Below, one piece after another: positions 23,730 through 39,122 of a stretch of 64,000 bases of DNA. The stretch is taken from contig NZ_SDHX01000001.1 in the NCBI RefSeq assembly GCF_004118375.1, positions 1,491,693-1,555,692 on the forward strand, given 5' to 3'. Under the pieces are notes generated by a model. It had not been told where the DNA came from. It did no database searches and worked only from the letters and a program-made list of their open reading frames with translations. Source of the DNA: Oleiharenicola lentus (GTDB taxonomy: Bacteria > Verrucomicrobiota > Verrucomicrobiia > Opitutales > Opitutaceae). Both the position numbers and the translations under genes were made by a program. Each line of letters opens with the position of its first letter. The first letter of the stretch is position 1.

Positions 23730-23997
23730 CTATGACGGGGGGATGAGGGACCAAAGGCGCTTCTTGGCGAATGCCCGGCCCATGGCGATTTTTAGGTATT
23801 TCTCGAATACCGCTGCTTTTTCCGATCCCGGAACGCTACCGTAGTTTTGATCCACCACAGGCGGGCTTTGGCCGAGTGTGGGACACCGCCGCATTGTGCT
23901 TCGCGAGTCGTGCCACCAAATCGTCGCTGAGGCCGACGTAAAAGCCTCCGGAGCAGAGCAAGGATTTCAGAACAGTGACCTAGGCGAATTTGTTCAC
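23730..23997 (-). pseudogene. GIY-YIG endonuclease-like gene, decayed
   Basis: The minus strand spells a GIY-YIG family protein broken three times. From 23997 it reads VNKFA, an in-frame TAG where a Tyr codon would be expected, then VTVLKSLLCSGGFYVGLSDD and LVARLAKHNAAVSHTRPKPA. A frame change leads to LWWIKTTVAFRDRKK, and another, at a run of five A, to AAVFEKYLKIAMGRAFAKKR and LWSLIPPS before a stop. Order and content match small UvrC-type GIY-YIG proteins (FYVGLSDDL, then AFxDRxxAxxFEKYLK, then GRAFAKKRL). It sits beside a tRNA gene, which is common for these proteins. Confidence 0.8.
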
Positions 23998-24166
23998 GTG
24001 ATTCGGCCCATCATTACTTATTGGGTTCTGCGGAGCGCTTGCTGAGGCCCGCCTGCGCCCGGTGGGATTTGGCGTGGCAGCCTACGTGAAGCGCATCGCA
24101 GTTCTTTCTGTCGATCAACGCCTTCCCTTGGCTGGCTTGCCGAGTCGTAGCTCGCAGAGCGAAGGC

Positions 24167-24243
24167 TGGTGGACCCTACTGGACTCGAACCAGTGACCTT
24201 TTCCATGTCAAGGAAACGCTCTAACCAACTGAGCTAAGGGTCC
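24167..24243 (-). tRNA. tRNA-Val (anticodon GAC)
   Basis: Cloverleaf on the minus strand: acceptor GGACCCT/AGGGTCC, D-arm AGCTCAGTTGGTTAGAGC, anticodon stem TTTCC/GGAAA with loop TTGACAT (anticodon GAC), T-arm CTGGTTCGAGTCCAG, discriminator A and encoded CCA. An open reading frame across it is spurious. Confidence 0.95.
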
Positions 24244-24382
24244 GTGAAGGGTCAGGAGTCAACGGTTCGGACCGGGCGGCGCAAGGGAAATTTCATCAAC
24301 GCGAAAACCTGTCAGGAGACCTGCGCGCGGGACATGGCGACGCTTGAATCCGCGTTAATTCGTGTCCATTCGTGCTTTCAAA

Positions 24383-26050
24383 ATGCTCCAATCCCTCCGC
24401 ATCCGCAATCTGGCGCTCCTCGACGAGGTCGAGCTGGATTTCGAGACGGGTTTCACCGCGGTGACCGGCGAGACCGGCGCGGGCAAGAGCATCCTGCTCG
24501 GCGCGCTGTCGCTGCTGGCCGGAGCGCGGGCGGACAAGACCATCATCCGCCAGGGCGCTGACGCCTGCGAGGTCGAGGCGGCGCTGTTTTTCTCCGACAC
24601 CCGCCGGCTCGACATGGTGCTGGCCAACCTGAGCCTGCCGCCCTGCGACGACGGTGTGCTCATCATCAAGCGCAGTCTCCCGCGCGAGAAGGCGCCGAAG
24701 ATGTCGGTCAACGGCGGCCTCGCCACGCTCGGCGCCCTCCAGGAACTCGGCGCGCAGTGGATCGATTTCCACGGCCCGGGCGAGCCGCGTCGGCTGCTCA
24801 AGGAAAACGGCCAGCGCGAGCTGCTCGACCTCTTCGCCCGCAACAGCGGCATCCTCGAGAAATACCAGGCGCTCTTCGGCCAATGGCGCGACCTGATCGA
24901 GGAGCGCGACCGCCTGCGCTCCGCCGACAAACTGTCATCCGACCAGATTGATTTCCTGAAACTGCAACTCGCCAAGATCGACGCCCTGGAGCTGACCGAG
25001 GAGGCCATCGCCGCCCTCGAACGCGACTTCCAGCGCCAGCAGGGAGCGCAGGAAATCATGCAGCTCGCCTCGCGCCTCAGCGGCGGACTCAGCGGCGAGG
25101 ACGGCCTGCTCGGCCGGCTGGCCCAATTGCTGCGCGATGCCCGTCAGCTCGAGGCCTTTGACGCCACCAGCAAGGCGCTGGCCGACCGCCTGCAGTCCGC
25201 CTCGCTGGAACTGGGCGACCTCGACGCGGAGTTTTCCTCGCTCGCGACCTCGCTGAACTTCGATCCCGAGCAGGCGGAGGAACTGCAGACCAAGATGAAT
25301 TCCTGGCTGGAGCTGAAGCGGAAGCACGGCGCCAAGGTCGAGGCCGTGCTCGCCGCGCGCGACGACATGCGCCGCCGTCTCGAGCAGCAGGGCGACATCG
25401 AGGGCACGCTGGCCAAATTGGAGAAACGGATCGCCGCCGCCGAGAAACAGGCCCGCGCCGCCGCCGCGGAACTCCGCGCCACCCGCGACAAGGCCGCGCA
25501 GCAGCTCGCCAAAGTTGCGGCCAAGGTCATCGTCCAGCTCGGTTTCAAGAAGGCTGATTTTCGTGTGGCGCTCACGCCGCTGGCCGAGCCCGGGCCGCAC
25601 GGCGACTGCGGGGTGGAGTTTCTGTTTTCGCCCAATGTTGGCGAGGCGCCTCTGCCGCTCAGCCGCATCGCGTCGAGCGGCGAGCTCGCGCGTGTCATGC
25701 TCGCGCTGAAAGCCGTTCTGGCCGAGATCGACGACGTGCCCCTGCTCGTATTCGACGAGGTGGACGCCAACGTCGGCGGCGAGATCGGCCGCATCGTGGG
25801 CGAGAAGATGGCCGACATCGCCGAGCGCCACCAGGTGCTTTGCGTGACGCACCTGCCACAGGTCGCGGCACAGGCGGCGAATCATTTTGTGGTGATCAAG
25901 GACCAGAGCGGCGACCGTGCCTCCGTGAGCATCGAATCCATCCACGACGACCGGAAGGGCCGGGTGGGGGAGCTCGCGAGGATGCTCGGCGACCGCACCG
26001 CCAAGAGCGCCCAGGCCCACGCCGAGGAGCTGTTGAAGCTGCGCGGGTGA
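24383..26050 (+). CDS. recN: DNA repair ATPase RecN
   Basis: 555 residues from the ATG at 24383 (MLQSLRIRNLALLDEVELDF); the upstream in-frame ATG at 24362 would add seven residues that are not typical. SMC-like protein of double-strand-break repair. Walker A GETGAGKS at residues 29-36; coiled-coil arms in the middle (about 150-370, rich in Glu/Lys/Arg/Ala); then RIASSGELARVMLALKAVL (ABC signature) and the Walker B block VPLLVFDEVDANVGGEIG, followed by the H-loop LCVTHLPQVAAQA. All key motifs are intact. Normal length for RecN. Downstream lies a cluster of inverted repeats. Confidence 0.95.
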   Translation: MLQSLRIRNLALLDEVELDFETGFTAVTGETGAGKSILLGALSLLAGARADKTIIRQGADACEVEAALFFSDTRRLDMVLANLSLPPCDDGVLIIKRSLPREKAPKMSVNGGLATLGALQELGAQWIDFHGPGEPRRLLKENGQRELLDLFARNSGILEKYQALFGQWRDLIEERDRLRSADKLSSDQIDFLKLQLAKIDALELTEEAIAALERDFQRQQGAQEIMQLASRLSGGLSGEDGLLGRLAQLLRDARQLEAFDATSKALADRLQSASLELGDLDAEFSSLATSLNFDPEQAEELQTKMNSWLELKRKHGAKVEAVLAARDDMRRRLEQQGDIEGTLAKLEKRIAAAEKQARAAAAELRATRDKAAQQLAKVAAKVIVQLGFKKADFRVALTPLAEPGPHGDCGVEFLFSPNVGEAPLPLSRIASSGELARVMLALKAVLAEIDDVPLLVFDEVDANVGGEIGRIVGEKMADIAERHQVLCVTHLPQVAAQAANHFVVIKDQSGDRASVSIESIHDDRKGRVGELARMLGDRTAKSAQAHAEELLKLRG

Positions 26051-26073
26051 GGGGGCTTTCTCTCGGATTGCCT

Positions 26074-26148
26074 GTAGGGTCGGACCTTGGTCCGACCTCG
26101 CGCACGATTGGTAGGGTCGTTGCAAGCAACGACCCTACCAATCGTGCG
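26074..26148. repeat. Inverted-repeat element of the GTAGGGTCG family
   Basis: Contains the unit GTAGGGTCGGACCTTGGTCC and a following perfect 23-bp inverted repeat (26101-26123 against 26126-26148, two-base loop) that contains GTAGGGTCGTTGC and its complement. Similar paired units occur at 33741-33798 and 40536-40627. After recN it could also act as a transcript end, though no T-run follows. Confidence 0.7.
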
Positions 26149-26256
26149 GAAGCCTGCGTCTCCTCATTTCCGATCCAGCCCGCCGCTGTATTTCCCGGCC
26201 ATTGTGCCACACGAAGGGCTGGCGTGGCGCGCCGGAATGTGATGGGTTGGGGCTGC

Positions 26257-27438
26257 ATGTCCGACCACACCCCGCTCTTCGCCCGCCGTATCGAGCAGAT
26301 GCGTCCCTCGACGATCCGCGAGATCCTCAAGGTCACCGCGCAGCCCGAGGTCATCTCGTTTGCCGGCGGTCTGCCCGCGCCCGAGCTGTTTCCGGTGGCC
26401 GAGGTGCGCGCCGCGGCCGACGAGGTGCTCGTGCAGCACGGCAGCCGTGCGCTGCAATACAGCCAGAGCGAGGGCTATCCCGGTTTGCGCGAATGGATCG
26501 CCGCCGAAGTGGGCCGCCGTGGCATCAAGGCCGCGATGGACGACGTGCTGGTGACCAACGGCTCGCAGCAGGTGCTCGATCTCGCCGGCAAGCTCTTCCT
26601 GAACCCCGGCGACGTGGTGCTGACCGAGAACCCGACCTACCTCGCGGCCATCCAGGCGTTCCAGACCTTCGAGGCGCGGTTCGTGCCGGTGCCGACCGAC
26701 GAGCACGGCCTGATTCCCGAGGCGCTGCCCGCGCTGATCAAGCAGCACCGGCCCAAGTTTCTCTACACGATCCCCAACTTCCAGAATCCCACCGGGATCA
26801 CGCTCACAGCCGCCCGGCGCGAGGCGCTGGCCCGCATCGCGGCGGAGCACAAGCTGCTCGTGCTGGAGGACGATCCTTACGGCAAACTCCGCTACCACGG
26901 TGCCGACATCCCGCCCATCAAGCACTGGGACACCGCCGGCCAGGTGCTCTACGCCAGCACGTTTTCCAAGACCATCGCCCCCGGCCTGCGCACCGGCTGG
27001 GTGGTGGCGCCGCCGGAGATTTTCAGCCGCCTCCTCATCCTCAAGCAGGCCTCGGATCTCCACACCTCGAGCTTCGACCAACTCGTGGCCTACACCTACC
27101 TGACCAAGTTCGACCAGACGGCGCATCTGGAAAAAATCCGCCGCGCCTACGGCGAACGTTACGAGGTGCTCGACGGCGCGCTCCGCGCTGCGATGCCGGC
27201 GGGCTTCAGCTGGACCAAGCCCGAGGGCGGCATGTTCCTCTGGATTACGGGACCGGCGAACCTCGACGCGCTGGAGCTCCTGCAACGCGCCATCGCCAAG
27301 AAGGTCGCCTTCGTGCCCGGCCGGGATTTCTTCCCCGCCGACGCCGGGAAAAACTACCTGCGCCTGAACTATTCCAATTCCACGCCCGAGCGCATCCGCG
27401 AGGGCGTGAGCCGGCTCGCGGCGCTCTGCCGCGGCTGA
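26257..27438 (+). CDS. PLP-dependent class I/II aminotransferase (2-aminoadipate/aromatic type)
   Basis: 393 residues, fold type I. The start is the ATG giving MSDHTPLFARRIEQMRPSTI, the normal opening for this group; in-frame codons further upstream run across the recN 3' end and repeats. FAGGLPAPELFP, ALQYSQSEGYPGLREWIAAE, the cofactor region TNGSQQVLDLAGKLFLNPGD, TIPNFQNPTGITL, the Asp of LEDDPYG, and the Lys of ASTFSKTIAPGLRTGWV are all present. Resembles LysN-type/aromatic aminotransferases of the MocR-like clade without a DNA-binding domain. The substrate cannot be fixed from sequence. Confidence 0.9.
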   Translation: MSDHTPLFARRIEQMRPSTIREILKVTAQPEVISFAGGLPAPELFPVAEVRAAADEVLVQHGSRALQYSQSEGYPGLREWIAAEVGRRGIKAAMDDVLVTNGSQQVLDLAGKLFLNPGDVVLTENPTYLAAIQAFQTFEARFVPVPTDEHGLIPEALPALIKQHRPKFLYTIPNFQNPTGITLTAARREALARIAAEHKLLVLEDDPYGKLRYHGADIPPIKHWDTAGQVLYASTFSKTIAPGLRTGWVVAPPEIFSRLLILKQASDLHTSSFDQLVAYTYLTKFDQTAHLEKIRRAYGERYEVLDGALRAAMPAGFSWTKPEGGMFLWITGPANLDALELLQRAIAKKVAFVPGRDFFPADAGKNYLRLNYSNSTPERIREGVSRLAALCRG

Positions 27439-27485
27439 CGCGCTGCAGGGTTGCCACGCGGCGGCAAGTGATTCTAGTTCGGGGC

Positions 27486-28394
27486 ATGACCCACCCCGTC
27501 TCGCGTCGCACCGCCCTCAAACAGCTTGGCGCCGGCACCGTCCTCGCCACCAGCATGAGCCTTCTCCACGCCTCCGACGCCGCCCCGGCGCCCGCCCGCA
27601 AGGGTCGCGTGAAGCAGTCTGTCTGCAAGTGGTGCTTCAAGGACATCCCCCTCGAGGAATTCTGCGCCGCCGCGGCGGCCATGGGCCTGCAGTCCGTGGA
27701 GCTGCTCGGACCGAAGGAATTTCCCGTTCTCAAAAAATACGGCCTGACCTGCGCGCTCGTCAGCAACCCGAACACGAAGGCCGGCGAGGTTTCCGTGGGT
27801 GGCATCACCAAGGCGTGGAACCGTCTCGAATACCACGACGCCCTCGTGGCCGCCTACGAGGTGCGGTTGAAGGAAACCGCCGAGGCCGGCATGCCCACGC
27901 TGATCGTTTTCTCCGGCAACCGCGACGGCATGTCCGACGAGCAGGGCCTGGAGAACTGTGTGATCGGCCTGAAGCGCATCGTGCCGCTTGCCGAGAAGCT
28001 CGGCGTCACGCTCGTGATGGAGCTGCTCAACAGCCGGGTGAACCACAAGGATTACATGTGCGACCGCACGCCGTGGGGCGTCGAGTTGTGCAAGCGCATC
28101 GGCTCCGACCGCTTCAAGCTGCTCTACGACATCTACCACATGCAGATCATGGAGGGCGACGTGATCGCCACGATCCGGCAGAACCACCAATATTTCGGGC
28201 ACTACCACACGGCCGGCGTGCCCGGGCGCAACGACCTCGATGAAACGCAGGAGCTGTTCTACCCCGCGATCATGCGCGCCATTGTGGAAACCGGCTATCA
28301 GGGCTTCGTCGGTCAGGAATTCATCCCGCGCGGCAAGGACACCGCGGCCGCGCTCGCCGCGCTCAAGCACGGCGTGCAGGTCTGCGACGTCTGA
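27486..28394 (+). CDS. Tat-exported sugar phosphate isomerase/epimerase-like TIM barrel (hydroxypyruvate isomerase-like)
   Basis: 302 residues. A twin-arginine signal (SRRTALKQLGAGTVLATSMS) ends near DAAPAPA, so the protein should be exported folded. The mature part is an AP-endonuclease-2-type TIM barrel: KWCFKDIPLEEFCAAAAAMG, LVMELLNSRVNHKDYMCD, KLLYDIYHMQIMEGD, GHYHTAGVPGRNDLDETQE and GFVGQEFIP. The Glu, Asp, His and Glu of these blocks would bind a divalent metal. It resembles Hyi-like isomerases, of which exported versions are frequent in Verrucomicrobiota and Planctomycetota. Its substrate is unknown. A strong terminator follows. Confidence 0.82.
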   Translation: MTHPVSRRTALKQLGAGTVLATSMSLLHASDAAPAPARKGRVKQSVCKWCFKDIPLEEFCAAAAAMGLQSVELLGPKEFPVLKKYGLTCALVSNPNTKAGEVSVGGITKAWNRLEYHDALVAAYEVRLKETAEAGMPTLIVFSGNRDGMSDEQGLENCVIGLKRIVPLAEKLGVTLVMELLNSRVNHKDYMCDRTPWGVELCKRIGSDRFKLLYDIYHMQIMEGDVIATIRQNHQYFGHYHTAGVPGRNDLDETQELFYPAIMRAIVETGYQGFVGQEFIPRGKDTAAALAALKHGVQVCDV

Positions 28395-28420
28395 GCCTCC
28401 CAGGACATCTCAACCGCCGC

Positions 28421-28456
28421 AAACACCACCTGTAATCAGGTGGTGTTTTTCTTTTC
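28421..28456 (+). terminator. Rho-independent terminator after the isomerase-like gene
   Basis: A perfect 12-bp stem, AAACACCACCTG/CAGGTGGTGTTT (28421-28432 and 28437-28448), loop TAAT, then TTCTTTT. It isolates the cytochrome cluster from upstream transcription. Confidence 0.92.
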
Positions 28457-28525
28457 AGCAGGGTCGTTGCGCGGTAGATTGGGAGCGAAAACCCCGCCGG
28501 CATGCGCTCACCATCATGCATGGAT

Positions 28526-28555
28526 TGCGCAAGGAATGAACACACGTGCGCAAGG
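28526..28555 (+). promoter_or_regulatory. Direct repeat upstream of the cytochrome cluster (possible activator site)
   Basis: TGCGCAAGG occurs at 28526-28534 and again at 28547-28555, start to start 21 bases, about two helical turns. It lies 110-140 bases before the first cytochrome gene. Such spacing is typical of paired regulator-binding sites. No matching -35/-10 pair was clearly recognised. Confidence 0.35.
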
Positions 28556-28664
28556 GGTGCGGAGTGCAAAAACTGCATATCTGGGAAGATGGCGACGATA
28601 AATCAGACATCGACTTTTCACTTTTCACCCCAAGCACCTCTAACGTTCGTCAAACACTGAAATC

Positions 28665-29444
28665 ATGAGCCTCAAACTGCGTTGGTCCAAATCGGCCCTG
28701 ATCTTCGGAGGCACCGCGATCTGGGGAATGCTGCTGGTCGGTTGCGTCATGGTGCAGCGCACCATGATCGTGCCGCCGCAGGTTCCCGGCGCCACCTTCG
28801 TCGGATCGGGCAAATGCGCGGACTGTCACGAAAGCGTGACGTCCGAATTTCATGACGCCACCCACGCCAAGCTGTTTGCCCCCGGCGGCAACGGCCAGGA
28901 GATCGGGTGCGAATCCTGCCACGGTCCCGCCTCCCTGCACGTGAAGTCCGGCGGCGAGCTCGGCACGATTATCAACCCGAAGGGCTCCCCCGAGACCTGC
29001 TTCCAGTGCCACCTCGACAAGCGCGGCGAGTTCGCCCTGCCGAACGCGCACCCCGTGCTCGCCGGCAAGATGGGCTGCAGCGACTGCCACAGCCCGCACA
29101 GCGGCGATGCCATCACCGAGGGCGGCACGAACTTCGCCAGCCTCAACGAGTCCTGCGTGAAGTGCCACACCTCCCAGGGCGGCCCGTATGTGTTCGAGCA
29201 CGAGGCTTCCCGCGAGGGTTGCGTCACCTGCCACAGCCCGCACGGCTCCATGAACGCCAAGATGCTCAAGGCGCGCAACGCCAACCTCTGCCTGCAGTGC
29301 CACTTCCAGCAGCAGACCGCGCCGGGCGTCATCCTCATCGGCGGTCGTGACCACGCCTCGTTCCTCTCCCGCGGCACCTGCTGGTCCGCCGGCTGCCACG
29401 AGGCCATCCACGGCTCGCACGTCAGCTCCTCCCTCCGCTTCTAA
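28665..29444 (+). CDS. MtrA/DmsE-like octaheme c-type cytochrome, predicted lipoprotein
   Basis: 259 residues. The N-terminus has a hydrophobic segment ending in a lipobox, LLVGC (Cys27), so it is probably lipid-anchored. Heme sites: seven CXXCH motifs at about residues 51, 82, 112, 138, 164, 186 and 209, plus one CX4CH (CWSAGCH at 239-245). TFVGSGKCADCHESV, IGCESCHGPASLHV and the ending GCHEAIHGSHVSSSLRF resemble the DmsE/MtrA family of porin-embedded cytochromes, which usually has ten haems. The next gene is an MtrB/PioB-like barrel, 27 bases on, supporting a role as the electron wire through an outer-membrane porin. No SD is needed to decide the start; ATG follows a non-coding gap. Confidence 0.88.
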   Translation: MSLKLRWSKSALIFGGTAIWGMLLVGCVMVQRTMIVPPQVPGATFVGSGKCADCHESVTSEFHDATHAKLFAPGGNGQEIGCESCHGPASLHVKSGGELGTIINPKGSPETCFQCHLDKRGEFALPNAHPVLAGKMGCSDCHSPHSGDAITEGGTNFASLNESCVKCHTSQGGPYVFEHEASREGCVTCHSPHGSMNAKMLKARNANLCLQCHFQQQTAPGVILIGGRDHASFLSRGTCWSAGCHEAIHGSHVSSSLRF

Positions 29445-29471
29445 CCCGCAACCTCCAACCAGGATACTGTG

Positions 29472-31574
29472 ATGAACACGATCTCTCCCTCCTCCCAGTC
29501 ACGCCGGCCGGTTGCGGCGCTGTGCGCGGTGCTCTGCGGCCTTGTCGCCCTGAACGCCGCCGAGAAGAAAGAACCGCCGCTCGAGAACTACATCGATTTC
29601 TCGGTCGGCGCCGCTTCCCTTGATGGCGACAAGCCGTCCTTCCAGAAAGGACAGCAGCTTGAAAAGGACGGCTTCGGCGGCATTGAGGCCCTCCACTACA
29701 CCAAGGCCCTCAACGACACGACGACGCTGACCCTCGACGCCCGGGCGCTCGCGGGCAACAACGACTACCTGTTCGACCTGAAGATCACCAAGGACGACCT
29801 CGGTTTCCTCAAGTTCGGCTACAAGGAGTTCCGCGTCTGGTATGACGGCAGCGGCGGCTACCTGCCGTCGCGGGCCTTCATCCTCCCGCTCTACGACGAG
29901 GACCTGTTCACCGACCGGGCCAACCTCTGGCTTGAGCTGGGTTACACGGTCGAGGATCGCCCGCAGTTCAACTTGCGCTACGACCTCTTCACCCGTGAGG
30001 GCACCAAGGACTCGACTTCCTGGGGCGACACCGGCCTGGCGGTGAGCGCCTCCGCGACCCGCGGCCTGCTGCCGACCTTCTTAAAGCTCGACGAGAAGCG
30101 CCACCAGCTGTCCGCCAACGTCAAGCAGACGAAGGACAACAGCACCTGGTCGCTCGCCGTGCGCGCCGACAAGGGTGACTACGAGAACTCCCGCAACATC
30201 CGCCGCCGCGCCAACGAGACCGGTCTCGACCGCAAGATCACCGCGAAGGAGGGTCAGGACTACGACCTCTTCCAGATGCGCGGCTCCTACGAGAACAAGA
30301 TCCACGACAAGCTCATGGTGACCACCGCCGTCGCCCGCACGACCATCGACACGACGCTCAGCGGCAGCCGCATCTACGGCGCCGACTACGATCCGGTGTA
30401 TGACCCGGCCTTTGCCAACCGCCAGCAACGCGACGAGGGTTTCTTCGACCTTCACGGCGAATCCGAGATGAAGCAGACCGTCGGCACGATCAGCGCCCGC
30501 TATGAGCCCAAGGAACGCCTGGTCATCGTGCCCGCCTTCCGCTTCGAGTCCATCGACTGGACCAACTTCGTCCACTTCGAGGAGACCAACGTCGGCAGCG
30601 GTGCGAGCCGTCCTCCCACCATGGAGGCCGTCGGCGCCGACAGCGAAAAGGACTGGAAGGTCATCTCCGAGAGCCTCGAGGCCCGTTACGCGGGCATCAA
30701 GAACCTCTCCCTCAGCTTCAAGGGCGAGTGGACCAAGTCCGAGGGCGACCTGACCGAGCTGCGCGTGCTCGAGCCCGGCACCTCGCACGCCGCAATCAGC
30801 ATCGACCGCGACTCCGAGTTTGAGCGCGACACCCAGAAGTATGCCGCGACCGCGAACTGGTATGTCCGCCCCGGCACCACCGTCGCCGTGCAGTATTACT
30901 ACAAGGGCCGCACCAACGACTACCGCGCCGTCCGCGACAACACCGTGAGCAGCGCCGACCGCTACCCGGCCTACATCGCCAACCAGGACTTCGAGACCAA
31001 CGACTTCAACGTCCGGTTCAGCACCAAGCTCGGCGACAAGGTGCGTTCCGTGACCCGCTACGACTATCAGGTCACGACCATCAACACCCAGGACATCGGC
31101 CTCGCCCTCGCCGAGAGCGCCGAGATGGAGACCCACGTCTTCGCCCAGTCCCTGAGCTGGATGCCGAAGGACCGCTGGTATGTGCAGGCCACGATCAACG
31201 TGGTCTGGGACACGCTGCGCACCCCCGCCGCCACCCTCACCGGCGCGGCCGGTGGTCTCGTCAAGAACAGCGACGCCAACTACACCTACGGCAGTCTCGG
31301 CGCCGGCTACGCGCTCGACGAGGACAGCGACCTCTACCTCGACTACACCGTCTCGGAGTCCCGCGACAGCTGGGTCAACAACTCCGACCGGACCGTCGCC
31401 TACGGCTCCGAATACACGACGCAGCTGGCCTCCGCCACCTGGACCCGCCGGCTTGACCGGAACATTTCGGTCTCGCTAAAATACGCCTACGCCAAGAATG
31501 AGGATGTGCCCAACGGCGGTTACGCCGACTACGAGGCCCACCTGATCTACGGCAAGCTGCAGTATCGCTTCTGA
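29472..31574 (+). CDS. MtrB/PioB-like outer-membrane beta-barrel of a porin-cytochrome conduit
   Basis: About 700 residues from the ATG at 29472 (a GTG lies one codon before). Signal peptide about 1-30, cleavage near LNA. The rest is alternating polar/aromatic beta strands: LTLDARALAGNNDYLFDLKI, NLSLSFKGEWTKSEGDLTEL, DLYLDYTVSESRDSW, and a C-terminal strand ending YGKLQYRF with terminal Phe, the outer-membrane barrel signal. Length and repeat style match the decaheme-associated MtrB/PioB family, which surrounds an MtrA-type cytochrome. It has no CXXC near the N-terminus, a motif some MtrB proteins carry. It lies directly after the MtrA-like gene and before a small cytochrome gene. Confidence 0.85.
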   Translation: MNTISPSSQSRRPVAALCAVLCGLVALNAAEKKEPPLENYIDFSVGAASLDGDKPSFQKGQQLEKDGFGGIEALHYTKALNDTTTLTLDARALAGNNDYLFDLKITKDDLGFLKFGYKEFRVWYDGSGGYLPSRAFILPLYDEDLFTDRANLWLELGYTVEDRPQFNLRYDLFTREGTKDSTSWGDTGLAVSASATRGLLPTFLKLDEKRHQLSANVKQTKDNSTWSLAVRADKGDYENSRNIRRRANETGLDRKITAKEGQDYDLFQMRGSYENKIHDKLMVTTAVARTTIDTTLSGSRIYGADYDPVYDPAFANRQQRDEGFFDLHGESEMKQTVGTISARYEPKERLVIVPAFRFESIDWTNFVHFEETNVGSGASRPPTMEAVGADSEKDWKVISESLEARYAGIKNLSLSFKGEWTKSEGDLTELRVLEPGTSHAAISIDRDSEFERDTQKYAATANWYVRPGTTVAVQYYYKGRTNDYRAVRDNTVSSADRYPAYIANQDFETNDFNVRFSTKLGDKVRSVTRYDYQVTTINTQDIGLALAESAEMETHVFAQSLSWMPKDRWYVQATINVVWDTLRTPAATLTGAAGGLVKNSDANYTYGSLGAGYALDEDSDLYLDYTVSESRDSWVNNSDRTVAYGSEYTTQLASATWTRRLDRNISVSLKYAYAKNEDVPNGGYADYEAHLIYGKLQYRF

Positions 31575-31602
31575 GCCCAACTCTCAACCCACTGCCAATC
31601 CC

Positions 31603-31941
31603 ATGAAGACCACGATGAAGCTCGTCACCCTCGGCCTGGCCCTTGCCGGCGCCGCCAGCCTCGCTGCCGCCACGGCGGCCGAGAACTGGGAAAACCACTG
31701 CGCCTCCTGCCACGGCGAAGACGGCAAGGCCCAGACCAAGCAGGGCAAGAAACTCAAGATCCGCGACTACACCGACGCCGCGGTGCAGGCCGAACTCAAG
31801 GACGACGCCATGCTCCAGGCCATCCTCGATGGCGTTAAGGAGAACGGCAAGGAGCGCATGAAGGGTTTCAAGGAAGAGCTCGAGAATCCCGACCAGGAGG
31901 CCAAGGACCTCGTCGCCTTCATCCGCAAGCTGAAGGCCTGA
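31603..31941 (+). CDS. Small periplasmic monoheme cytochrome c (class I)
   Basis: 112 residues. Signal peptide KLVTLGLALAGAASLAAATA, one heme site CASCHGEDGKA at about 33-37, a Met in ERMKGFKEEL that can be the sixth iron ligand, and a C-terminal helix AKDLVAFIRKLKA. This is the usual layout of small soluble c-type cytochromes that shuttle electrons in the periplasm. It is 28 bases after the barrel gene and before a terminator, so it is probably in the same transcript as the conduit and may carry electrons to it from the inner membrane proteins encoded downstream. Confidence 0.88.
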   Translation: MKTTMKLVTLGLALAGAASLAAATAAENWENHCASCHGEDGKAQTKQGKKLKIRDYTDAAVQAELKDDAMLQAILDGVKENGKERMKGFKEELENPDQEAKDLVAFIRKLKA

Positions 31942-31960
31942 GCGGCAGACATCTACCCCT

Positions 31961-32005
31961 GCTCCGGCGTGAAAACCTGCCCCTTCGCGCCGGAGCTTTT
32001 TGTTT
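31961..32005 (+). terminator. Rho-independent terminator after the conduit genes
   Basis: GCTCCGGCG (31961-31969) pairs with CGCCGGAGC (31988-31996), followed by TTTTTGTTT. It separates the MtrA-MtrB-cytochrome set from the ImcH-like gene. Confidence 0.85.
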
Positions 32006-32028
32006 CAGCGTCCCGCAAATTCAAGGCC

Positions 32029-32120
32029 ATGTCATCGCGAGGTCCGCAGCGCGGACCGTGACGATCCAGTCGGATTGCTTTGTCCCCCGGCGAAAGGGGG
32101 ATCCTCGCGCTGACCAAGAT
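32029..32120. repeat. Degenerate dispersed repeat (GTCATCGCGAGG type)
   Basis: The block begins GTCATCGCGAGGTCCGCAGC and ends GGATCCTCGCGCTGAC, the two ends being imperfect inverted copies, with CCCCCGGCGAAAGGGGG hairpin between. This style matches short intergenic repeats found in many bacterial genomes. It has no coding potential. Confidence 0.5.
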
Positions 32121-32155
32121 ATCAGGACGAATCACCTCCACCACCATTCCACGCC

Positions 32156-33652
32156 ATGAGTGACGAATCCCCGTCCGAATCCGTCGCGCCCCTGCGGCCG
32201 CGCTCGCATTTCAACAACTGGATCAGCGCCCTGGGCGCGGTCCTCGCCATCGGTGCGCTGTTCTCGTTCGCGCTGCTCACCTGGATGGACCTGACCGGTT
32301 CCAACCAGAATCCCTATCTCGGCATCTTCAGCTACATCGTCGCCCCCGGCTTCCTGATCGCCGGCATCGCGATGGCCTTCTTCGGGGCCTGGGCGCAGCG
32401 CCGCTGGATGCTCAAGCACACGACCCAGCCCGACAAGTGGCGGCTCGACTTCAACAACCGGGCGCAGCGGCGACTGCTCATCCTGTTTGGCTGCGGCGGC
32501 GTGGTGTTTCTGCTCCTCAGCGCCTTCGGCAGCTACCAGTCCTACCACTACGCCGAGTCCAACCAGTTCTGCGGCCAGGTCTGTCACACGGCGATGAATC
32601 CCGAATACCAGACCTACCAGCGCGGCGCGCACGCCCGCGTGGACTGCGTCGAGTGCCACGTCGGCTCCGGCGCGCAGGCCTTCATCGAGGCCAAGCTCAA
32701 CGGCACGCGCCAGCTCATCGGCTTCACCCTCGACAACTACCAGCGACCGATCCCCACGCCCGTGCACAACCTCCGCCCGGCGCGCGAGACCTGCGAGAAG
32801 TGCCACTGGCCCGAGAAATTCCACGGCAACGTCGAGATGGTCTTCGATCACTACCTGTCCAACCGGAAGAACGACAGCCACACCGTGCGCATGCTCATGC
32901 ACGTGAACTCCGGGCGTCCCGGCAGTCCGCTCGGCGGCATCCACTGGCACGTCAGCCCGGACAGCTCGGTCGAGTATTACGCCGCCGACGAAAAGCGACA
33001 GGACATCGTGTGGATGCGCGTGACCGACAAGAAGGACGGCACCGTGAAGATTTTCCGCAACGAGACCTTCAAGGGCGAGCCGCCCGCCGGCACGGTCCGC
33101 ACGATGGACTGCATGGACTGCCACAACCGCCCCGCCCACGTCTTCCCGACCGCCAACGAGTCGGTCGAGCACGCCATGGCGCTCGGCACGATCAGCGGCA
33201 AGCTGCCCAACGTGAAGCGGACCGTGGTCCAGGCCCTCCTGCAGGAGGACATCGCCACCAGCGCCGAGGCGCCCGGCAAGATCGCCGAGTTCCTCCGGGC
33301 CAAATACAAGGACCACGCCGACCTTCCGGCCACCATCGCGGCCACCCAGGAAATCTACGCGAAGACCATCTTCCCCGAGCGCAAGGCCGACTGGCGCGTC
33401 TATCCCAACAACATCGGCCACAAGGACTGGCTTGGCTGCTTCCGCTGCCACGACGACAAGCACAAGACCGAGAAGGGCGAGACCGTCCGCGCCAGCGACT
33501 GCAACTCCTGCCACACCATCCTCGCGCAGGGCAAGGGCGAGCAGCTCGCCAGCATCAGCGCCTCCGGCCTGGAGTTCGAGCACCCCAGCGGCCCCTACGA
33601 TGAGGAGCTGACCTGCGCCGACTGCCACAACGGCGGCATCCAGGGGAAGTAA
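32156..33652 (+). CDS. ImcH-like NapC/NirT-family heptaheme inner-membrane cytochrome
   Basis: 498 residues. Three hydrophobic helices near the N-terminus (about 22-45, 58-80, 103-122) are followed by a periplasmic haem domain. Heme sites in order: CGQVCH (a CX3CH motif), CVECH, CEKCH, CMDCH, CFRCH, CNSCH and CADCH, seven in all. The first lies in the NapC/NirT-like context SNQFCGQVCHTAMNPEYQTY. This membrane layout and seven-haem count match Geobacter ImcH, a quinol-oxidising inner-membrane cytochrome needed for high-potential extracellular acceptors. ImcH similarity is judged from memory of the layout. It starts after a terminator and a repeat, so it may have its own promoter. Confidence 0.85.
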   Translation: MSDESPSESVAPLRPRSHFNNWISALGAVLAIGALFSFALLTWMDLTGSNQNPYLGIFSYIVAPGFLIAGIAMAFFGAWAQRRWMLKHTTQPDKWRLDFNNRAQRRLLILFGCGGVVFLLLSAFGSYQSYHYAESNQFCGQVCHTAMNPEYQTYQRGAHARVDCVECHVGSGAQAFIEAKLNGTRQLIGFTLDNYQRPIPTPVHNLRPARETCEKCHWPEKFHGNVEMVFDHYLSNRKNDSHTVRMLMHVNSGRPGSPLGGIHWHVSPDSSVEYYAADEKRQDIVWMRVTDKKDGTVKIFRNETFKGEPPAGTVRTMDCMDCHNRPAHVFPTANESVEHAMALGTISGKLPNVKRTVVQALLQEDIATSAEAPGKIAEFLRAKYKDHADLPATIAATQEIYAKTIFPERKADWRVYPNNIGHKDWLGCFRCHDDKHKTEKGETVRASDCNSCHTILAQGKGEQLASISASGLEFEHPSGPYDEELTCADCHNGGIQGK

Positions 33653-33662
33653 TCGGTTTACA

Positions 33663-33798
33663 GGTGGAACCCGCGCTCCGCGCGGGTTTCCGCACCAGGC
33701 CGCGACGGAGCGCGGGCTCCACCTCCACCCTGAATGGCCTGTAGGGTCGGCGCTTGCGCCGACCTAACGCGCGAAGTCGCCGCAAGCAGCGACCCTAC
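33663..33798. repeat. Two inverted-repeat elements between ImcH-like and CbcL-like genes
   Basis: First element: an 18-bp arm beginning GGTGGAACCCGCGCTCCG (33663-33680) is matched by its near-complement at 33706-33723. Second element: unit GTAGGGTCGGCGCTTGCGCC (33741) faces the inverse unit ending GCGACCCTAC (33789-33798). The second element is the family seen at 26074 and 40536. No gene lies here. Confidence 0.7.
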
Positions 33799-33919
33799 AC
33801 AGACAGGCGCAGCTCGGAGATTCAGGCCTACATCGTCGCCTCCCGCACAATCTACGCTCCGCCCCCGCCAACGCCTGCGGAGCGCGCAGCTGGCCTTGGT
33901 GCGATGATGCAGTCGGACG

Positions 33920-36109
33920 ATGAAACTCCTGCGTGCACCCCGTTGGGTGATCGCTGGCCTGCTGGTCATCCTGACTGCGGCCCGCGCGGCGGAGCCGTCC
34001 GGTTACAGGAAGCCCGCCGGTCCGCCGGTTGTGCCGAACAGCGAGTGCATGGACTGCCACGAGGCCGAGTTCAAATCGCGGAAGAAGGGTCAACCCAAGG
34101 AGTGGATCGGCATCAAACCGGAGCCCTATGCGCACTCGGCGCACAAGGACCTGGCGTGCATCGAGTGCCACACGGCGATCACCGAGCCCGAGCACCCGTC
34201 AAAGCTGCCAGCGGTGGACTGCGCTGCCTGCCACCAGGACACCGCGGCCAAGCACGCCTTCCACCCGCGACTGGCCGAGGCGCCCGTGCCGGCGGGCGAC
34301 GACACGGCCTGCGCGCAGTGCCACGACCCTCACGAGATGCTGCCGGTCAAGGATGCCGCCTTTGCCTTCCGCCGCGAAAGCCAGACCCAAGCCTGCGGTC
34401 GCTGCCACGAAAAGGCCCGCGACGGCTACCTCGCTTCGGCGCATGCGCTGCGCAGCAGCACCACGCTTTCCGTCGAGCCCGACTGCCTCTCCTGCCACCG
34501 TGAACGCGTGGCCAGCGTTGGCCCCGGCTGCCTGCCGGTGGAGCTGAAGCTGGCCCAGGTGCAGCAATGTGAATCCTGCCACGTGAGGAAAGAGGAGGTC
34601 GTGCAGCGCACGCTCCTCGGCGCGAAGTTTGTCGCCGGTTTCAACCACTCCGTGCACGGCTCGGCCCTGCTGGCGGGCAAGGAGAACTCCGCCTCCTGTG
34701 TGGACTGCCACGGGGCGCATGCGATGAACAAGGCCGCGGTCGGCACCGCGTCGGTCAACCGGCTGCACCTCACCGACACCTGTGCGCGCTGCCACGAGAA
34801 GGAGGCCGACGGCTACCGGCAGAGCGTGCACGCCGTCGCGCTGGGGCAGGGCAACCTTGATTCCGCGGGTTGCACGGACTGCCACGGCGAGCACGACATC
34901 AAGCCGCACACCGATCCCTCCTCGCCGGTGCACAAGACCAACCTCGCGCAGCAGGTTTGCGCCGAGTGCCACGCTTCGGTGCGGCTCACGCGTCGCTACG
35001 GGCTCGCCAGCGACACCTTCAAGACCTTCAGCGACAGCTACCACGGCCTCGCCGTGCGGGGTGGGGCGGTGAGTGTGGTAAACTGCGCGAGCTGCCACGG
35101 CAGCCATGTGATCAAGTCGCAGGACGACCCGAGCTCCAGCGTCCACAAGGCCAACCTCATGCAGACCTGCGGCGAGTGTCATCCGGGGGCGGGGGAGCGT
35201 TTCACCATCGGCGCGGTCCACTCCAGCGACGAGCAGAAGGCCGATTCGCCGATCCTCTACTGGATCGCGACGTTCTATCTCATTCTGATCACCGTGACCA
35301 TCGGCGGCATGCTGGTGCACAACGGGCTGGATTTCCTGAAGAAGATCCGGCGAAAGCTGGCCATTCAGAAGGGCGAGATCGAAGAGCCACACGTCGCGCA
35401 CCGGCTCTACCTGCGCATGACGGCGCACGAGCGGTGGCAGCACGGGGCGCTCGTCGTGAGCTTCGTCGTGCTGGTCATCACCGGCTTCATGCTGCGTTTC
35501 CCCGAGGCGTGGTGGGTGGTGGCGCTGCGCGGCGTCAGTGACCGGGCCTTCGAATGGCGGAGCCTGATCCACCGCGTGGCGGGCGTCGTCATGCTCGTGG
35601 CCGGCGCCTGGCACATCGGCTACCTCGCCTTCGCTCCGGCCGGGCGGAAGCTCTTCCTCGACTTGCTCCCGCGCTGGCGCGATGTGCTCGATCCATGGCG
35701 CGTGCTGAAATACAACCTCGGCCTCGCGCCGACCAAGCCGGCCTTCGGACGCTTCAGCTACATCGAGAAGGTCGAATACTGGGCGATGGTCTGGGGCACG
35801 CTGCTCATGGGCGTGACCGGCGCCCTCCTCTGGTTCGACAACACCTCGATCAACCTCTTCTCGAAGCTCGGCTTCGACGTCTCGCGCACGATCCACTACT
35901 ACGAGGCCATCCTCGCCACGCTCGCGATCATCTTCTGGCATTTCTACTTCGTGATCTTCAACCCCGACGTCTATCCGATGAACCTCGCCTGGCTCACCGG
36001 CCGGATGTCCGAAGCCGAGATGCTGGAGGAGCATCCGTTGCAGTTGGAAGAGATGAAGCAGGCGCAGAAGCGGGCAGCCAAGCCGCCACCCGGACCGCCC
36101 ACGCAGTAG
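33920..36109 (+). CDS. CbcL-like fusion: 13-haem cytochrome c domain plus membrane cytochrome b (copy 1)
   Basis: 729 residues. Signal peptide about 1-23. The N-terminal two thirds holds thirteen CXXCH motifs (CMDCH, CIECH, CAACH, CAQCH, CGRCH, CLSCH, CESCH, CVDCH, CARCH, CTDCH, CAECH, CASCH, CGECH). From about residue 455 there are membrane helices with histidines placed for b haem: HERWQHGALVVSFVVLVITG, HRVAGVVMLVAGAWHIGYLA, and HYYEAILATLAIIFWHFYFV. This resembles Geobacter CbcL (nine c haems fused to a HydC/FdnI-like b subunit), a quinol oxidase for low-potential extracellular respiration, but with more c haems. Shares VVPNSEC-DCHEAEFK and KKGQPKEWIG with the gene at 36951, so the two are paralogues. 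Confidence 0.87.
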   Translation: MKLLRAPRWVIAGLLVILTAARAAEPSGYRKPAGPPVVPNSECMDCHEAEFKSRKKGQPKEWIGIKPEPYAHSAHKDLACIECHTAITEPEHPSKLPAVDCAACHQDTAAKHAFHPRLAEAPVPAGDDTACAQCHDPHEMLPVKDAAFAFRRESQTQACGRCHEKARDGYLASAHALRSSTTLSVEPDCLSCHRERVASVGPGCLPVELKLAQVQQCESCHVRKEEVVQRTLLGAKFVAGFNHSVHGSALLAGKENSASCVDCHGAHAMNKAAVGTASVNRLHLTDTCARCHEKEADGYRQSVHAVALGQGNLDSAGCTDCHGEHDIKPHTDPSSPVHKTNLAQQVCAECHASVRLTRRYGLASDTFKTFSDSYHGLAVRGGAVSVVNCASCHGSHVIKSQDDPSSSVHKANLMQTCGECHPGAGERFTIGAVHSSDEQKADSPILYWIATFYLILITVTIGGMLVHNGLDFLKKIRRKLAIQKGEIEEPHVAHRLYLRMTAHERWQHGALVVSFVVLVITGFMLRFPEAWWVVALRGVSDRAFEWRSLIHRVAGVVMLVAGAWHIGYLAFAPAGRKLFLDLLPRWRDVLDPWRVLKYNLGLAPTKPAFGRFSYIEKVEYWAMVWGTLLMGVTGALLWFDNTSINLFSKLGFDVSRTIHYYEAILATLAIIFWHFYFVIFNPDVYPMNLAWLTGRMSEAEMLEEHPLQLEEMKQAQKRAAKPPPGPPTQ

Positions 36110-36123
36110 CCCTGAATCTTTGA

Positions 36124-36175
36124 ACCACAAAGGCACCAAGATTCGGAGATATCCCTCTCTTTGTGTCTTTGTGGT
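36124..36175. repeat. Inverted repeat (ACCACAAAG type)
   Basis: A 17-base arm, beginning ACCACAAAGGCACCAAG (36124-36140), is matched near-perfectly by CTTTGTGTCTTTGTGGT (36159-36175). It lies between the CbcL-like gene and the toxin gene. It is a dispersed repeat by style. Confidence 0.6.
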
Positions 36176-36190
36176 GAAAGTATCTGTGAA

Positions 36191-36490
36191 CTACACGTAT
36201 CGACCAAGCCAGTGGAGTGGGTGACGTTTGCTGTGGCTGATGGACAGGATTTCCAGTTCTTCGCCGGCCAGTTTTTCCCAGTAGTAGAAGGCGTAGGGAA
36301 AGCGGCGGATGAGTCCGCGCCGCACGCCGTCCTCGATGATCCGCCAGCGATACGGAAAGTCCCGGAGATCGGCGACCGCCTCATCCACGGCCAGGATAAA
36401 GTCTGCGCCCAAGCCTGGACGTTTGGTTTCGTAGTAAAGGGCGGCTTCGGCGAATTCCCGATCCGCCTCCGGGTGCAGGACGATTCTCAT
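36191..36490 (-). CDS. RelE/ParE-family toxin
   Basis: 99 residues. RIVLHPEADREFAEAALYYE, then ADFILAVDEAVADLRDFPYR and the C-terminal GLIRRFPYAFYYWEKLAGEE, is the ParE/RelE fold: a beta-alpha-alpha start, a helix pair, and the FPY-xxYY strand. ParE toxins hit gyrase and RelE toxins cut mRNA; which applies here is undetermined. Its ATG overlaps the antitoxin stop by ATGA, the normal antitoxin-toxin order. It lies between the two CbcL-like genes on the opposite strand. Confidence 0.85.
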   Translation of the reverse strand: MRIVLHPEADREFAEAALYYETKRPGLGADFILAVDEAVADLRDFPYRWRIIEDGVRRGLIRRFPYAFYYWEKLAGEELEILSISHSKRHPLHWLGRYV

Positions 36491-36702
36491 TCACGGGCCC
36501 GGTCAAGCGCGGCCCGAGCGGAGGCGAGTGCCTCGGCATAGGGACGGCTGACCACTTGGCCCGTGGCTGATTGGTGCTTGCGTTGCAGGGCGACCTGCAG
36601 GGCCGGATCCTCGCGCTCGGCCTTCAGCATGAAGGCGGAAACCTCGGCCAAGCCCTCCGGGGGCAGACCCTTGATCTCGGCGATGATCTCGGCGGCTTTC
36701 AC
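36487..36702 (-). CDS. Antitoxin partner of the RelE/ParE toxin
   Basis: 71 residues with a GTG start. KAAEIIAEIKGLPPEGLAEV then SAFMLKAEREDPALQVALQR is a helical N-terminal segment; the rest is charged and probably unfolded until bound to toxin. The N-terminal helical pattern is common in small antitoxins paired with ParE-like toxins. It overlaps the toxin start by four bases, so the pair is translationally coupled. Identity as antitoxin is inferred from position and size, with modest sequence support. Confidence 0.72.
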   Translation of the reverse strand: MKAAEIIAEIKGLPPEGLAEVSAFMLKAEREDPALQVALQRKHQSATGQVVSRPYAEALASARAALDRARE

Positions 36703-36950: not shown

Positions 36951-39122
36951 ATGGGCAAGGTATCGTCATCGCTCACCCGCGTCGTCCTGTTGTTGGCCGG
37001 CGTTTGGGGACTTGCGTCATCCGCATTGAGTGCCGCCGAGGAAGCGGTGCTGAAGCCAGCGGAGATGGCCGCGCCGACCGTTGTGCCGAACAGCGAGTGC
37101 CTGGACTGCCACGAGGCGGAGTTCAAACCGCGCAAGAAGGGCCAGCCCAAGGAATGGATCGGTGTGCGCCCGGAACTGTTCACGAAGTCCGTCCACGGGA
37201 AGCTAAACTGCGTGGACTGTCACAACACGATCACCGAGCCCGAGCACCCTTCGAAGCTGCCACCGGCGCAGTGCGCGAGTTGCCACGACAAGGCGGTCAA
37301 CCAGTTCGCCAAGAGCATTCACGGCATGAGCCACGAGATGGGCTCGTCCGACGCCGCATCCTGCGCGAGCTGTCACGGCACGCACTACTTGGTGCCGGTG
37401 AAACAGGCCGATTCGCCCGTCTTCAAGTTCAACCTGGCGAAGACCTGCGGCACCTGCCACGACGACGACAAGATCACCAAGGACTACCGCATGGGCCAGA
37501 CGAAGGCCGCGGGCCACTACCTCGACAGCATTCACGGCCGCGCGCTCACGCAGATGGGCCTGATCGTCGCCCCGAGCTGCAACGACTGCCACGGCGTCCA
37601 CGACATCAAGCGCAGCGTGGACAAGGAATCGCACACCCACCACGCCAACATCGCGAAGTCCTGCGGCGCCTGCCACCTCGGCATCGAGGAAACCTACAAC
37701 GCCAGCGTGCACGGGCAGCTGCTGCGCAAGGGCGACGGCAAGGGGCCGGTCTGCACCGACTGCCACAGCGCGCACGACATCGAGAAACCCACGAACGCGC
37801 ACTTCAAGGCCAACAGCGACCAGAGCTGCGGCAAGTGCCACGAGGACCGGCTCGAGCACTACCGCGAAACCTATCACGGCAAGGCCATGGCCCTCGGCCA
37901 GCCGAACGTGGCGTCGGATGTGGCTGCGTGCTATGACTGCCACGGCCATCACGACGTGTTCCCGGTGAGCGACGAGCGCTCGCGGTTGTCGAAGGACAAG
38001 ATCCTCGCCACCTGCCAGCAGTGCCACCCGGGCGTCGGGCCGAAGTTCACCCAATACCAGCCGCACGCCAACCCGCTCGACGAGGTCAACTACCCGATCC
38101 TGAACAAGGTGTTCTGGTTCATGACCTCGCTGCTGATCGGCGTGTTCGGCTTCTTCGGCCTGCACACGGCCTTCTGGCTCTTCCGGTCGATCTACCTCTA
38201 CCTGCACGACACGAAATCGTTCCGCGCCGCGGTGGTGCAGACCCACACCGACGACGAGAACTACACCCGCTTCACGCCGTTCGAGCGCTTCCTGCACCTG
38301 ATGATGGTGACCAGTTTCCTCGCGCTGGTGATCACCGGCATGCCGCTGAAGTTCTACTACACCGACTGGGCGAAGCTGATGTTCCGCCTGCTGGGCAATG
38401 CCGAAGTGGCACGCACGCTGCACCACTACGCGGCAGTCGTCACCTTTGCCTATTTCTTCCTGCATCTCGCGGCGTTGGTGCGCGGCTTCTGGCGCAACCG
38501 CGGCGGCCTGAAGGATCCGGTCACGGGCAAGTTCACCTTCAAGCGGCTCTTGGACCTCATCTTCCATCCCGACTCCATGGTGCCGTCGCCGCAGGACTGG
38601 CGCGACTTTATCGCTCACCAGAAATGGTTCTTCGGCAAGGGACCGCGCCCGCAGTTCGACCGCTGGACCTACTGGGAGCGCTTCGACTACTTCGCCGTGT
38701 TTTGGGGCGTGGCGATCATCGGCTTCTCGGGCCTGATCATGTGGTTCCCGGGCTTCTTCACGCAGTTCCTCCCCGGCTGGGTGATCAACATCGCGCTCGT
38801 GGTGCACTCCGACGAAGCGCTGCTCGCGGCCGGCTTCATCTTCTCATTCCACTTCTTCAACACGCATTTCCGCATCGAGAAGTTCCCGATGGACACGGTG
38901 ATCTTCTCGGGCCGGATCTCGAAGACCGAGATGCTGCACGAGCGGAAGCGCTGGTATGACCGCTTGGTCGCCGCCGGCAAACTTCAGGTCTATCGCGTGA
39001 AGTCCGACGACTGGGAAGGCCGCAAGAACATCGCCAAGGCCTGGGGCTTCATCTTCTTCGGCACCGGCCTCGTGCTGCTGGCGCTAATCGTGTATGCGAT
39101 GGTCTCGCGGCTGGGGCATTGA
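36951..39122 (+). CDS. CbcL-like fusion: 11-haem cytochrome c domain plus membrane cytochrome b (copy 2)
   Basis: 723 residues. Signal peptide about 1-28. Eleven CXXCH motifs in order: CLDCH, CVDCH, CASCH, CASCH, CGTCH, CNDCH, CGACH, CTDCH, CGKCH, CYDCH, CQQCH. The membrane part from about residue 385 carries FERFLHLMMVTSFLALVITG, RTLHHYAAVVTFAYFFLHLA, HSDEALLAAGFIFSFHFFNT and a C-terminal helix FIFFGTGLVLLALIVYAMV. Unlike copy 1 it has that extra C-terminal helix. Shared N-terminal motif and b-type helices show descent from one ancestor; differing haem numbers show divergence. Likely a second quinol-dependent electron entry module for the same conduit. Confidence 0.87.
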   Translation: MGKVSSSLTRVVLLLAGVWGLASSALSAAEEAVLKPAEMAAPTVVPNSECLDCHEAEFKPRKKGQPKEWIGVRPELFTKSVHGKLNCVDCHNTITEPEHPSKLPPAQCASCHDKAVNQFAKSIHGMSHEMGSSDAASCASCHGTHYLVPVKQADSPVFKFNLAKTCGTCHDDDKITKDYRMGQTKAAGHYLDSIHGRALTQMGLIVAPSCNDCHGVHDIKRSVDKESHTHHANIAKSCGACHLGIEETYNASVHGQLLRKGDGKGPVCTDCHSAHDIEKPTNAHFKANSDQSCGKCHEDRLEHYRETYHGKAMALGQPNVASDVAACYDCHGHHDVFPVSDERSRLSKDKILATCQQCHPGVGPKFTQYQPHANPLDEVNYPILNKVFWFMTSLLIGVFGFFGLHTAFWLFRSIYLYLHDTKSFRAAVVQTHTDDENYTRFTPFERFLHLMMVTSFLALVITGMPLKFYYTDWAKLMFRLLGNAEVARTLHHYAAVVTFAYFFLHLAALVRGFWRNRGGLKDPVTGKFTFKRLLDLIFHPDSMVPSPQDWRDFIAHQKWFFGKGPRPQFDRWTYWERFDYFAVFWGVAIIGFSGLIMWFPGFFTQFLPGWVINIALVVHSDEALLAAGFIFSFHFFNTHFRIEKFPMDTVIFSGRISKTEMLHERKRWYDRLVAAGKLQVYRVKSDDWEGRKNIAKAWGFIFFGTGLVLLALIVYAMVSRLGH

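Follow-up and report, generated by a model that had tools for sequence, protein, structure and literature searches.

A candidate two-part, MtrA/MtrB-related electron conduit in Oleiharenicola lentus, encoded without a surface cytochrome of the MtrC/OmcA type

Does a wire that carries electrons across the outer membrane need a cytochrome at the cell surface? Two-part conduits, which combine a cytochrome and a barrel, test this, and a locus of Oleiharenicola lentus raises the question. Here, three adjacent genes for an octahaem cytochrome, a barrel and a monohaem cytochrome lie in a stretch of 64,000 nucleotides (hereafter the window; positions 1491693-1555692 of a 3.30-Mb contig, in a genome of two contigs and 4.71 Mb rated 100% complete), whose nearest relatives are from Opitutaceae and other Verrucomicrobiota. 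The original prediction, made from the window alone, held that these genes are followed by a terminator and inner-membrane genes, that no surface terminal cytochrome is encoded with them, and that the conduit may hand electrons straight to outside acceptors, use a surface cytochrome encoded elsewhere or run inward. We propose, with about even confidence, a two-part conduit of the MtrA-MtrB kind, lipid-anchored and directed outward, that has no surface cytochrome of its own and hands electrons over directly. The gene order, the homology of the cytochrome, the fold of the barrel, the absence of known third-part types from profile searches and the conservation of the pair support this directly; its lipidation, topology, direction and acceptor we infer. 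The three genes are:

28665..29444, + strand: octahaem MtrA-related conduit cytochrome, 259 aa, seven CX2CH motifs and a C-terminal CX4CH
29469..31574, + strand: outer-membrane barrel, 26 strands and MtrB fold in the model, 701 aa, no haem
31603..31941, + strand: monohaem class I cytochrome c, 112 aa, one CX2CH, hydrophobic leader, no lipobox

The conduit cytochrome is homologous to MtrA. It matches the MtrA chain of the Mtr crystal structure (PDB 6r2q_A) with an E-value of 8.2e-30. Its haems 2-8 pair with MtrA haems 4-10 in the phmmer alignment, and a six-row alignment sets its haem 1 opposite haem 3 of the MtrA from Photobacterium, which is encoded on plasmid pDA100 beside true MtrC and MtrB. 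This pairing implies that the octahaem protein lacks the first two haems of MtrA, at the N-terminal end; in MtrA, that end projects into the periplasm (PMC7198977, PMC5971433; cited papers are represented here by excerpts). With eight haem sites the protein falls short of the ten that characterize MtrAB, PioAB and MtoAB, and the DmsE/MtrA model TIGR03508 gives it 153.5 bits, below the cut-off of 192.2 (Photobacterium MtrA as a control: 322.4). For its AlphaFold2 model, built without haems and with a predicted local distance difference test score (pLDDT) of just 65, the single Foldseek match under 0.001 is 6r2q_A. The protein ends in SLRF, and a conserved LR[FY] end is common to these proteins and Photobacterium MtrA; it recalls the aromatic last residue of barrel proteins. 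In the sequence table, chain 6r2q_A is named 'Cystathionine beta-synthase', apparently a deposition label error.

The barrel, as modelled, has an MtrB-type fold on a diverged sequence. The AlphaFold2 model, from an alignment of 49 sequences, has a pLDDT of 90.4 and a predicted template modelling (TM) score of 0.83, and contains 26 strands of at least 10 residues (two 3-residue bridges are left out of this count). Its best PDB match by Foldseek is MtrB (6r2q_B; E 6.4e-14, TM scores 0.64/0.69), and VIA superposes it on MtrB with Z 23.5 over 570 residues at 3.9 Å, the next row having 17.9; with both methods MtrB outranks the TonB-dependent receptors. MtrB is described as a barrel of 26 strands, the first four of them shorter, with a helix in the loop that joins beta1 and beta2 (PMC7198977). 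The model agrees in this, with first strands of 10-13 residues and a helix at residues 55-62 between strands 1 and 2; its presumed surface loops span 3-20 residues and the opposite turns 2-6. No match was found for the barrel in Pfam or NCBIfam, including the MtrB/PioB family TIGR03509, to which the control, Photobacterium MtrB, scores 551.1 bits.

Conservation was followed in the best 80 of 207 related stretches from GTDB genomes (79 loci), in 20 further neighbourhoods and in an order-wide survey of 273 genomes (below, L-labels denote loci and G-labels genomes). In the survey, searches with the barrel at E 1e-5 and with the octahaem profile at E 1e-30 pick out the same 24 genomes, leaving 249 non-carriers; 15 of the 24 carriers belong to the window's family and nine lie outside it. 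The 79 loci hold 85 octahaem open reading frames (ORFs), with a barrel downstream of 84 (the exception is L103); for this count tblastn was used instead of ORF selection, which can miss genes in these loci. Two or three octahaem-barrel pairs occur in each of L090, L092, L101, L143 and L160. The barrels form two groups, one resembling the window's barrel and the other with only about 26% identity to it; L090 and L101 have both. The conduit is also found in records labelled Dechloromonas, Acidobacteria, Deltaproteobacteria or Akkermansia muciniphila, by record label only, for which mis-binning is possible.

Two traits run through the octahaem proteins. A cysteine 23-29 residues before haem 1, ending a hydrophobic leader, is present in 85/85 ORFs of the loci and 20/20 of the further neighbourhoods, which together make 99 distinct sequences; in the window it closes a lipobox-like LVGC at residues 24-27. 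A strict lipobox is recognized in 62/85 and 14/20 ORFs (72/99 distinct sequences) and a looser one in 82/85 and 19/20, and the residue after the cysteine (+2) is never Asp; among leaders of monohaem cytochromes, taken as a control, 1/66 has the strict form. These patterns suggest that the protein is probably lipidated at Cys27. The last haem motif is CX4CH in all 99 distinct sequences, with a near-invariant Trp (CWSAGCH in the window). In Photobacterium MtrA no cysteine precedes the first haem, and the last haem motif is CX2CH. In Shewanella-type systems the lipid anchor sits on the surface cytochrome MtrC.

Is there a surface cytochrome to receive the electrons? Within the window, the only ORFs of at least 60 aa with at least two CX2-4CH motifs are those of the octahaem cytochrome and of three inner-membrane proteins listed below (one ImcH-like, two CbcL-like), and the claim that no surface terminal cytochrome is encoded with the conduit is thus borne out. 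Nor was an MtrC/OmcA-type cytochrome found when the complete 4.71-Mb genome was searched with the profiles PF09699, PF14522, PF13435, PF14537, TIGR03507 and PF22113, a census by profiles rather than by a raw motif scan and with none dedicated to OmcS, OmcE or OmcZ. It added only NrfHA, a pentahaem protein that we take to be ActA-like (nearest NCBIfam family QrcA), two C554-TPR octahaem proteins and, as low-scoring matches, ORFs with at most two motifs (L007, L014, L016, L017, L020, L039, L042). The best score in this genome against TIGR03507, the OmcA/MtrC decahaem family, is 18.8 bits for a cut-off of 209.3, and the family exceeds its cut-off in 0/273 genomes of the order (Photobacterium MtrC as a control: 392 bits). 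Matches to it in 17/273 genomes were rejected, all being below the cut-off; 12 of the 17 begin at profile position 491, as does that of the genome's own pentahaem protein. PF22113, the MtrC/F-domain profile, has no match in the genome at E 1e-4 or better. Its matches were not accepted as a plain sign of a surface cytochrome: it exceeds its cut-off in 39/273 genomes, yet the proteins concerned are CbcL-like in G196, G202, G013, G272 and G003, and many others are the pentahaem protein or C554-TPR proteins.

A conduit-linked third part does exist among the relatives. If a nearby multihaem gene counts as large from 450 aa and eight haems upwards, inner-membrane types excepted, one accompanies five of the 99 distinct octahaem sequences, or 4/59 where the available sequence extends 3 kb or more upstream and 7 kb or more downstream. 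The nearby proteins of L107, L118 and L136 (the three tested) carry MtrC/F-like domains over the cut-off; those of L118 and L136 measure 890 and 592 aa. The haem domain of the protein encoded at L239:878-3253 in G031, used as a query, recurs in G031, G047, G063, G084 and G147, all carriers (5/24 versus 0/249 non-carriers, p 3.5e-6). In all five the gene shares a contig with the octahaem gene, at a distance of about 3 kb or less, and G063 has one more copy on a different contig; a leader was observed in G031, G047 and G084 (L242) only. Altogether 27 genomes match the query, 22 of them in the C-terminal tail only, which is perhaps a shared surface-sorting module. The haem domain is found in 0/15 carriers of the window's family versus 5/9 carriers elsewhere (p 0.003, with the reservations that related genomes do not count as independent and that scoring was limited to the few best candidates of each genome). 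Checking neighbouring loci in relatives, as had been suggested, thus reveals a third part that exists in the order and is absent from this genome. On the octahaem tree, where many inner branches are open, a large multihaem gene nearby requires at least four changes. The five conduits with a nearby third part keep the cysteine and CX4CH, and none has the strict lipobox, versus 72/94 of the others (p 0.001); restricted to the same side of the tree, the strict form is missing in 5/5 versus 16/32, a weaker contrast (p 0.06). In this phylum, one homologous conduit occurs naturally in two-part and, apparently, three-part form, which allows a direct comparison of what the surface part contributes. 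Apart from these large genes, G181, a carrier, has near its conduit a 460-aa ORF with six haems, below the eight-haem limit, and one N-terminal hydrophobic stretch, and small four-haem ORFs lie near several conduits.

On the other side of the conduit, the genes suit a supply of electrons from the quinone pool. As predicted, the three conduit genes are followed by a terminator and inner-membrane genes:

28421..28448, + strand: terminator-like hairpin upstream of the conduit operon (consensus scan only)
31961..31996, + strand: intrinsic terminator hairpin, 13 bp, then TTTTTGTTT
32156..33652, + strand: ImcH-like inner-membrane cytochrome, three transmembrane helices, six CX2CH and one CX3CH (seven haems), NapC/NirT domain
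33920..36109, + strand: CbcL-like protein, 13 CX2CH, b-type cytochrome membrane part
36951..39122, + strand: CbcL-like protein, 11 CX2CH, b-type cytochrome membrane part

The octahaem, barrel and monohaem genes, separated by gaps of 24 and 28 bp, form one operon ended by a strong hairpin terminator. The fold of 31955-32006 has a free energy of -25.1 kcal/mol (z -6.6; 0/200 shuffles equally stable), and the U tract 3' of the hairpin reads UUUUUGUUU; a simple terminator scanner saw just a 5-bp core of this hairpin. The three genes beyond it, on the same strand, are of quinone-linked types. By the published descriptions (PMC6295460), the first is ImcH-like in its three N-terminal transmembrane helices, its NapC/NirT part and a haem number between 6 and 10, and the other two resemble CbcL/MtrH/MtoC in joining a multihaem part at the N-terminus to a HydC/FdnI-like b-type cytochrome. 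Ni_hydr_CYTB is over the cut-off in both. Simple hydropathy gives these two proteins 4 and 5 helices beyond the leader; six are usual in a CbcL-type membrane part.

In the proposed conduit, electrons from the quinol pool would pass through the ImcH-like and CbcL-like proteins to the monohaem cytochrome, which is probably a periplasmic shuttle, and from there to haem 1. The lipid on Cys27 would anchor the protein by its haem-1 end in the inner leaflet of the outer membrane; haems 2-8 (MtrA haems 4-10) would lead through the 26-strand barrel to the last haem, the one bound by CX4CH, which would face outside and pass electrons directly to soluble, chelated or humic acceptors. There is precedent for such an exit: MtrAB alone carries electrons across the membrane of liposomes, and in the absence of MtrC it supports extracellular Fe(III) reduction (PMC4245776, PMC5971433). 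Shewanella lacking MtrC and OmcA reduces Fe(III)-EDTA (ethylenediaminetetraacetate) at the wild-type rate, and MtrC is needed for most reduction of flavin mononucleotide and Fe(III)-citrate (PMC12304082). Humic substances have been proposed as the acceptor for verrucomicrobial clusters (He et al. 2017; PMC5615132). A bolder version, which we offer tentatively and think rather unlikely, is that these proteins form a class of conduit whose cytochrome takes over the surface role as well: it would bear the lipid anchor that Shewanella-type systems have on MtrC, the periplasmic two-haem extension would be gone, the CX4CH haem would act as the reductase, and a linked surface multihaem protein would be optional.

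Among the alternatives, a surface cytochrome encoded elsewhere in the genome, either a C554-TPR octahaem protein or a nanowire-type protein that profiles miss, might complete the conduit; we consider this a minority possibility. The profile census described above leaves room for it, having had no OmcS control, and the two C554-TPR proteins (L046:4896-7100 and L047:5416-7110, at 2.04 Mb and 2.67 Mb of C1) have eight CX2CH each, lipobox-like leaders and 86% identity in the haem region. Past that region the L047 frame diverges from the L046 sequence, possibly by a frameshift. We rejected them as partners on their distribution, which is unrelated to the conduit: the protein is found in 93/273 genomes, 9/24 carriers versus 84/249 non-carriers (p 0.82), and the gene upstream in L046, read by eye, is glycosidase-like. 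A second argument for a partner encoded elsewhere comes from other members of the window's family, where we examined eight PF22113 places in five carriers, judging leaders by eye. Unlinked genes for large multihaem proteins are found in G248 (L256; two ORFs some 18 kb from the conduit, of 404 aa with 9 haems and 785 aa with 11), G172 (L260; 689 aa with 9 haems and 997 aa with 6) and G232 (L262; 606 aa with 11), in the latter two away from the conduit. G135 encodes an 857-aa, six-haem protein away from the conduit, its other places being a CbcL-like 13-haem protein and a NapC-like membrane-anchored nine-haem protein; that of G066 is C554-TPR-like. The proteins of L256, L260 and L262 with 9-11 haems have leader-like N-termini and may be surface cytochromes, of a type that the window's genome lacks; there PF22113, which detected them, finds none at the threshold given above. 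They make a distant partner possible in the family, and they contradict the rule, which we had considered for this order, that a surface cytochrome, where present, always adjoins the conduit.

That the conduit runs inward, with Fe(II) or some other external donor as the source of electrons, appears improbable. The two-part MtoAB and PioAB have been proposed for Fe(II) oxidation (PMC6344600, PMC4245776), and CbcL/MtoC homologues are known in both directions (PMC6295460); however, the same 2018 paper, as excerpted, reports ImcH homologues only from Fe(III) reducers and takes them as quinol oxidases, and the ImcH-like and CbcL-like partners together favour the outward direction. A RuBisCO-like gene (L244:7805-9052), considered as support for inward flow, was rejected: its protein is nearest to the sugar-catabolic OiaX type (503 bits, below the cut-off of 700), it lies beside an OiaK-like kinase gene, and it probably serves sugar-acid catabolism rather than CO2 fixation. 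As it is the sole RuBisCO-like gene, there is no sign of CO2 fixation by the Calvin cycle (other genes for CO2 fixation, Fe(II) oxidation or phototrophy were not searched for). Equally hard to favour is an extracellular enzyme docked on the barrel, in the manner of DmsAB on DmsEF. Complexes of DmsF with extracellular DmsAB are described (PMC7198977), and the octahaem protein scores against the DmsE model; that score stays under the cut-off, and inspection by eye of the ORFs in 22000-40000, with no family search, showed no such enzyme.

Direct hand-off thus emerges as the best of the three options first put forward, the pair being related to MtrA and MtrB and the third part of the G031 type being absent here and throughout the family's carriers. 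Several observations nevertheless weigh against the lipid-anchored two-part conduit. The barrel lacks significant sequence similarity to MtrB (hhalign of 49 barrels against Photobacterium MtrB gives a probability of 5%), and in its model the last six strands are short too (11-15 residues). Lipidation is read from a motif that is strict in 72/99 sequences. An ImcH-like gene lies no more than 6 kb downstream in 29/76 relatives and a monohaem gene within 1.5 kb in 33/76, both counts being depressed by contig ends and ORF choice. Finally, G248, G172 and G232, all of the window's family, have large secreted proteins of 9-11 haems away from the conduit.

How does this conduit compare with known systems? 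With the MtrAB of Shewanella MtrCAB (PDB 6r2q) it shares a homologous membrane-spanning cytochrome, a barrel of 26 strands, the first of them short, whose first surface loop contains a helix, and adjacent genes. It differs in having 8 rather than 10 haems (MtrA haems 1-2 missing), a lipobox-type cysteine, a last haem of CX4CH instead of CX2CH, a diverged barrel sequence and no MtrC/OmcA. PioAB and MtoAB likewise combine a conduit cytochrome and a barrel without a surface cytochrome (PMC6344600, PMC4245776), but by their published descriptions they are decahaem, whereas here the cytochrome is octahaem, with the lipobox-type cysteine, CX4CH and ImcH/CbcL-like partners. Geobacter OmbB-OmaB-OmcB, compared by description only, also pairs a porin with an octahaem periplasmic cytochrome, but has the dodecahaem OmcB outside. 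From Verrucomicrobia including Opitutus and Ca. Udaeobacter, He et al. (2017; PMC5615132) described a complex with a porin gene beside an eight-haem cytochrome gene, an arrangement found here as well, and an extracellular multihaem gene only in several cases. Records of both groups carry the present conduit (L125, Opitutus; L141, Ca. Udaeobacter). In the excerpted text the authors regarded their complex as periplasmic and novel, without homology to the systems of Shewanella and Geobacter, and stated that homologues of those systems were absent; our analysis adds the MtrA/MtrB relationship, the conserved cysteine, the exit haem and the distribution of the third part. Among titles and abstract openings, our literature search found no description of a lipidated MtrA-like conduit or of a verrucomicrobial MtrA. 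As far as this search shows, the MtrA/MtrB relationship, the conserved cysteine, the CX4CH exit haem, the strict co-occurrence of the pair and the distribution of one third-part type are new. They tie a widespread, mostly uncultured bacterial group to the Mtr lineage and offer traits open to experiment, namely a lipid on the conduit cytochrome and CX4CH at the exit.

The genome's NrfHA pair (L045:5529-7698) has CX2CH in all five NrfA motifs; the active-site haem of classic NrfA is bound by CX2CK.

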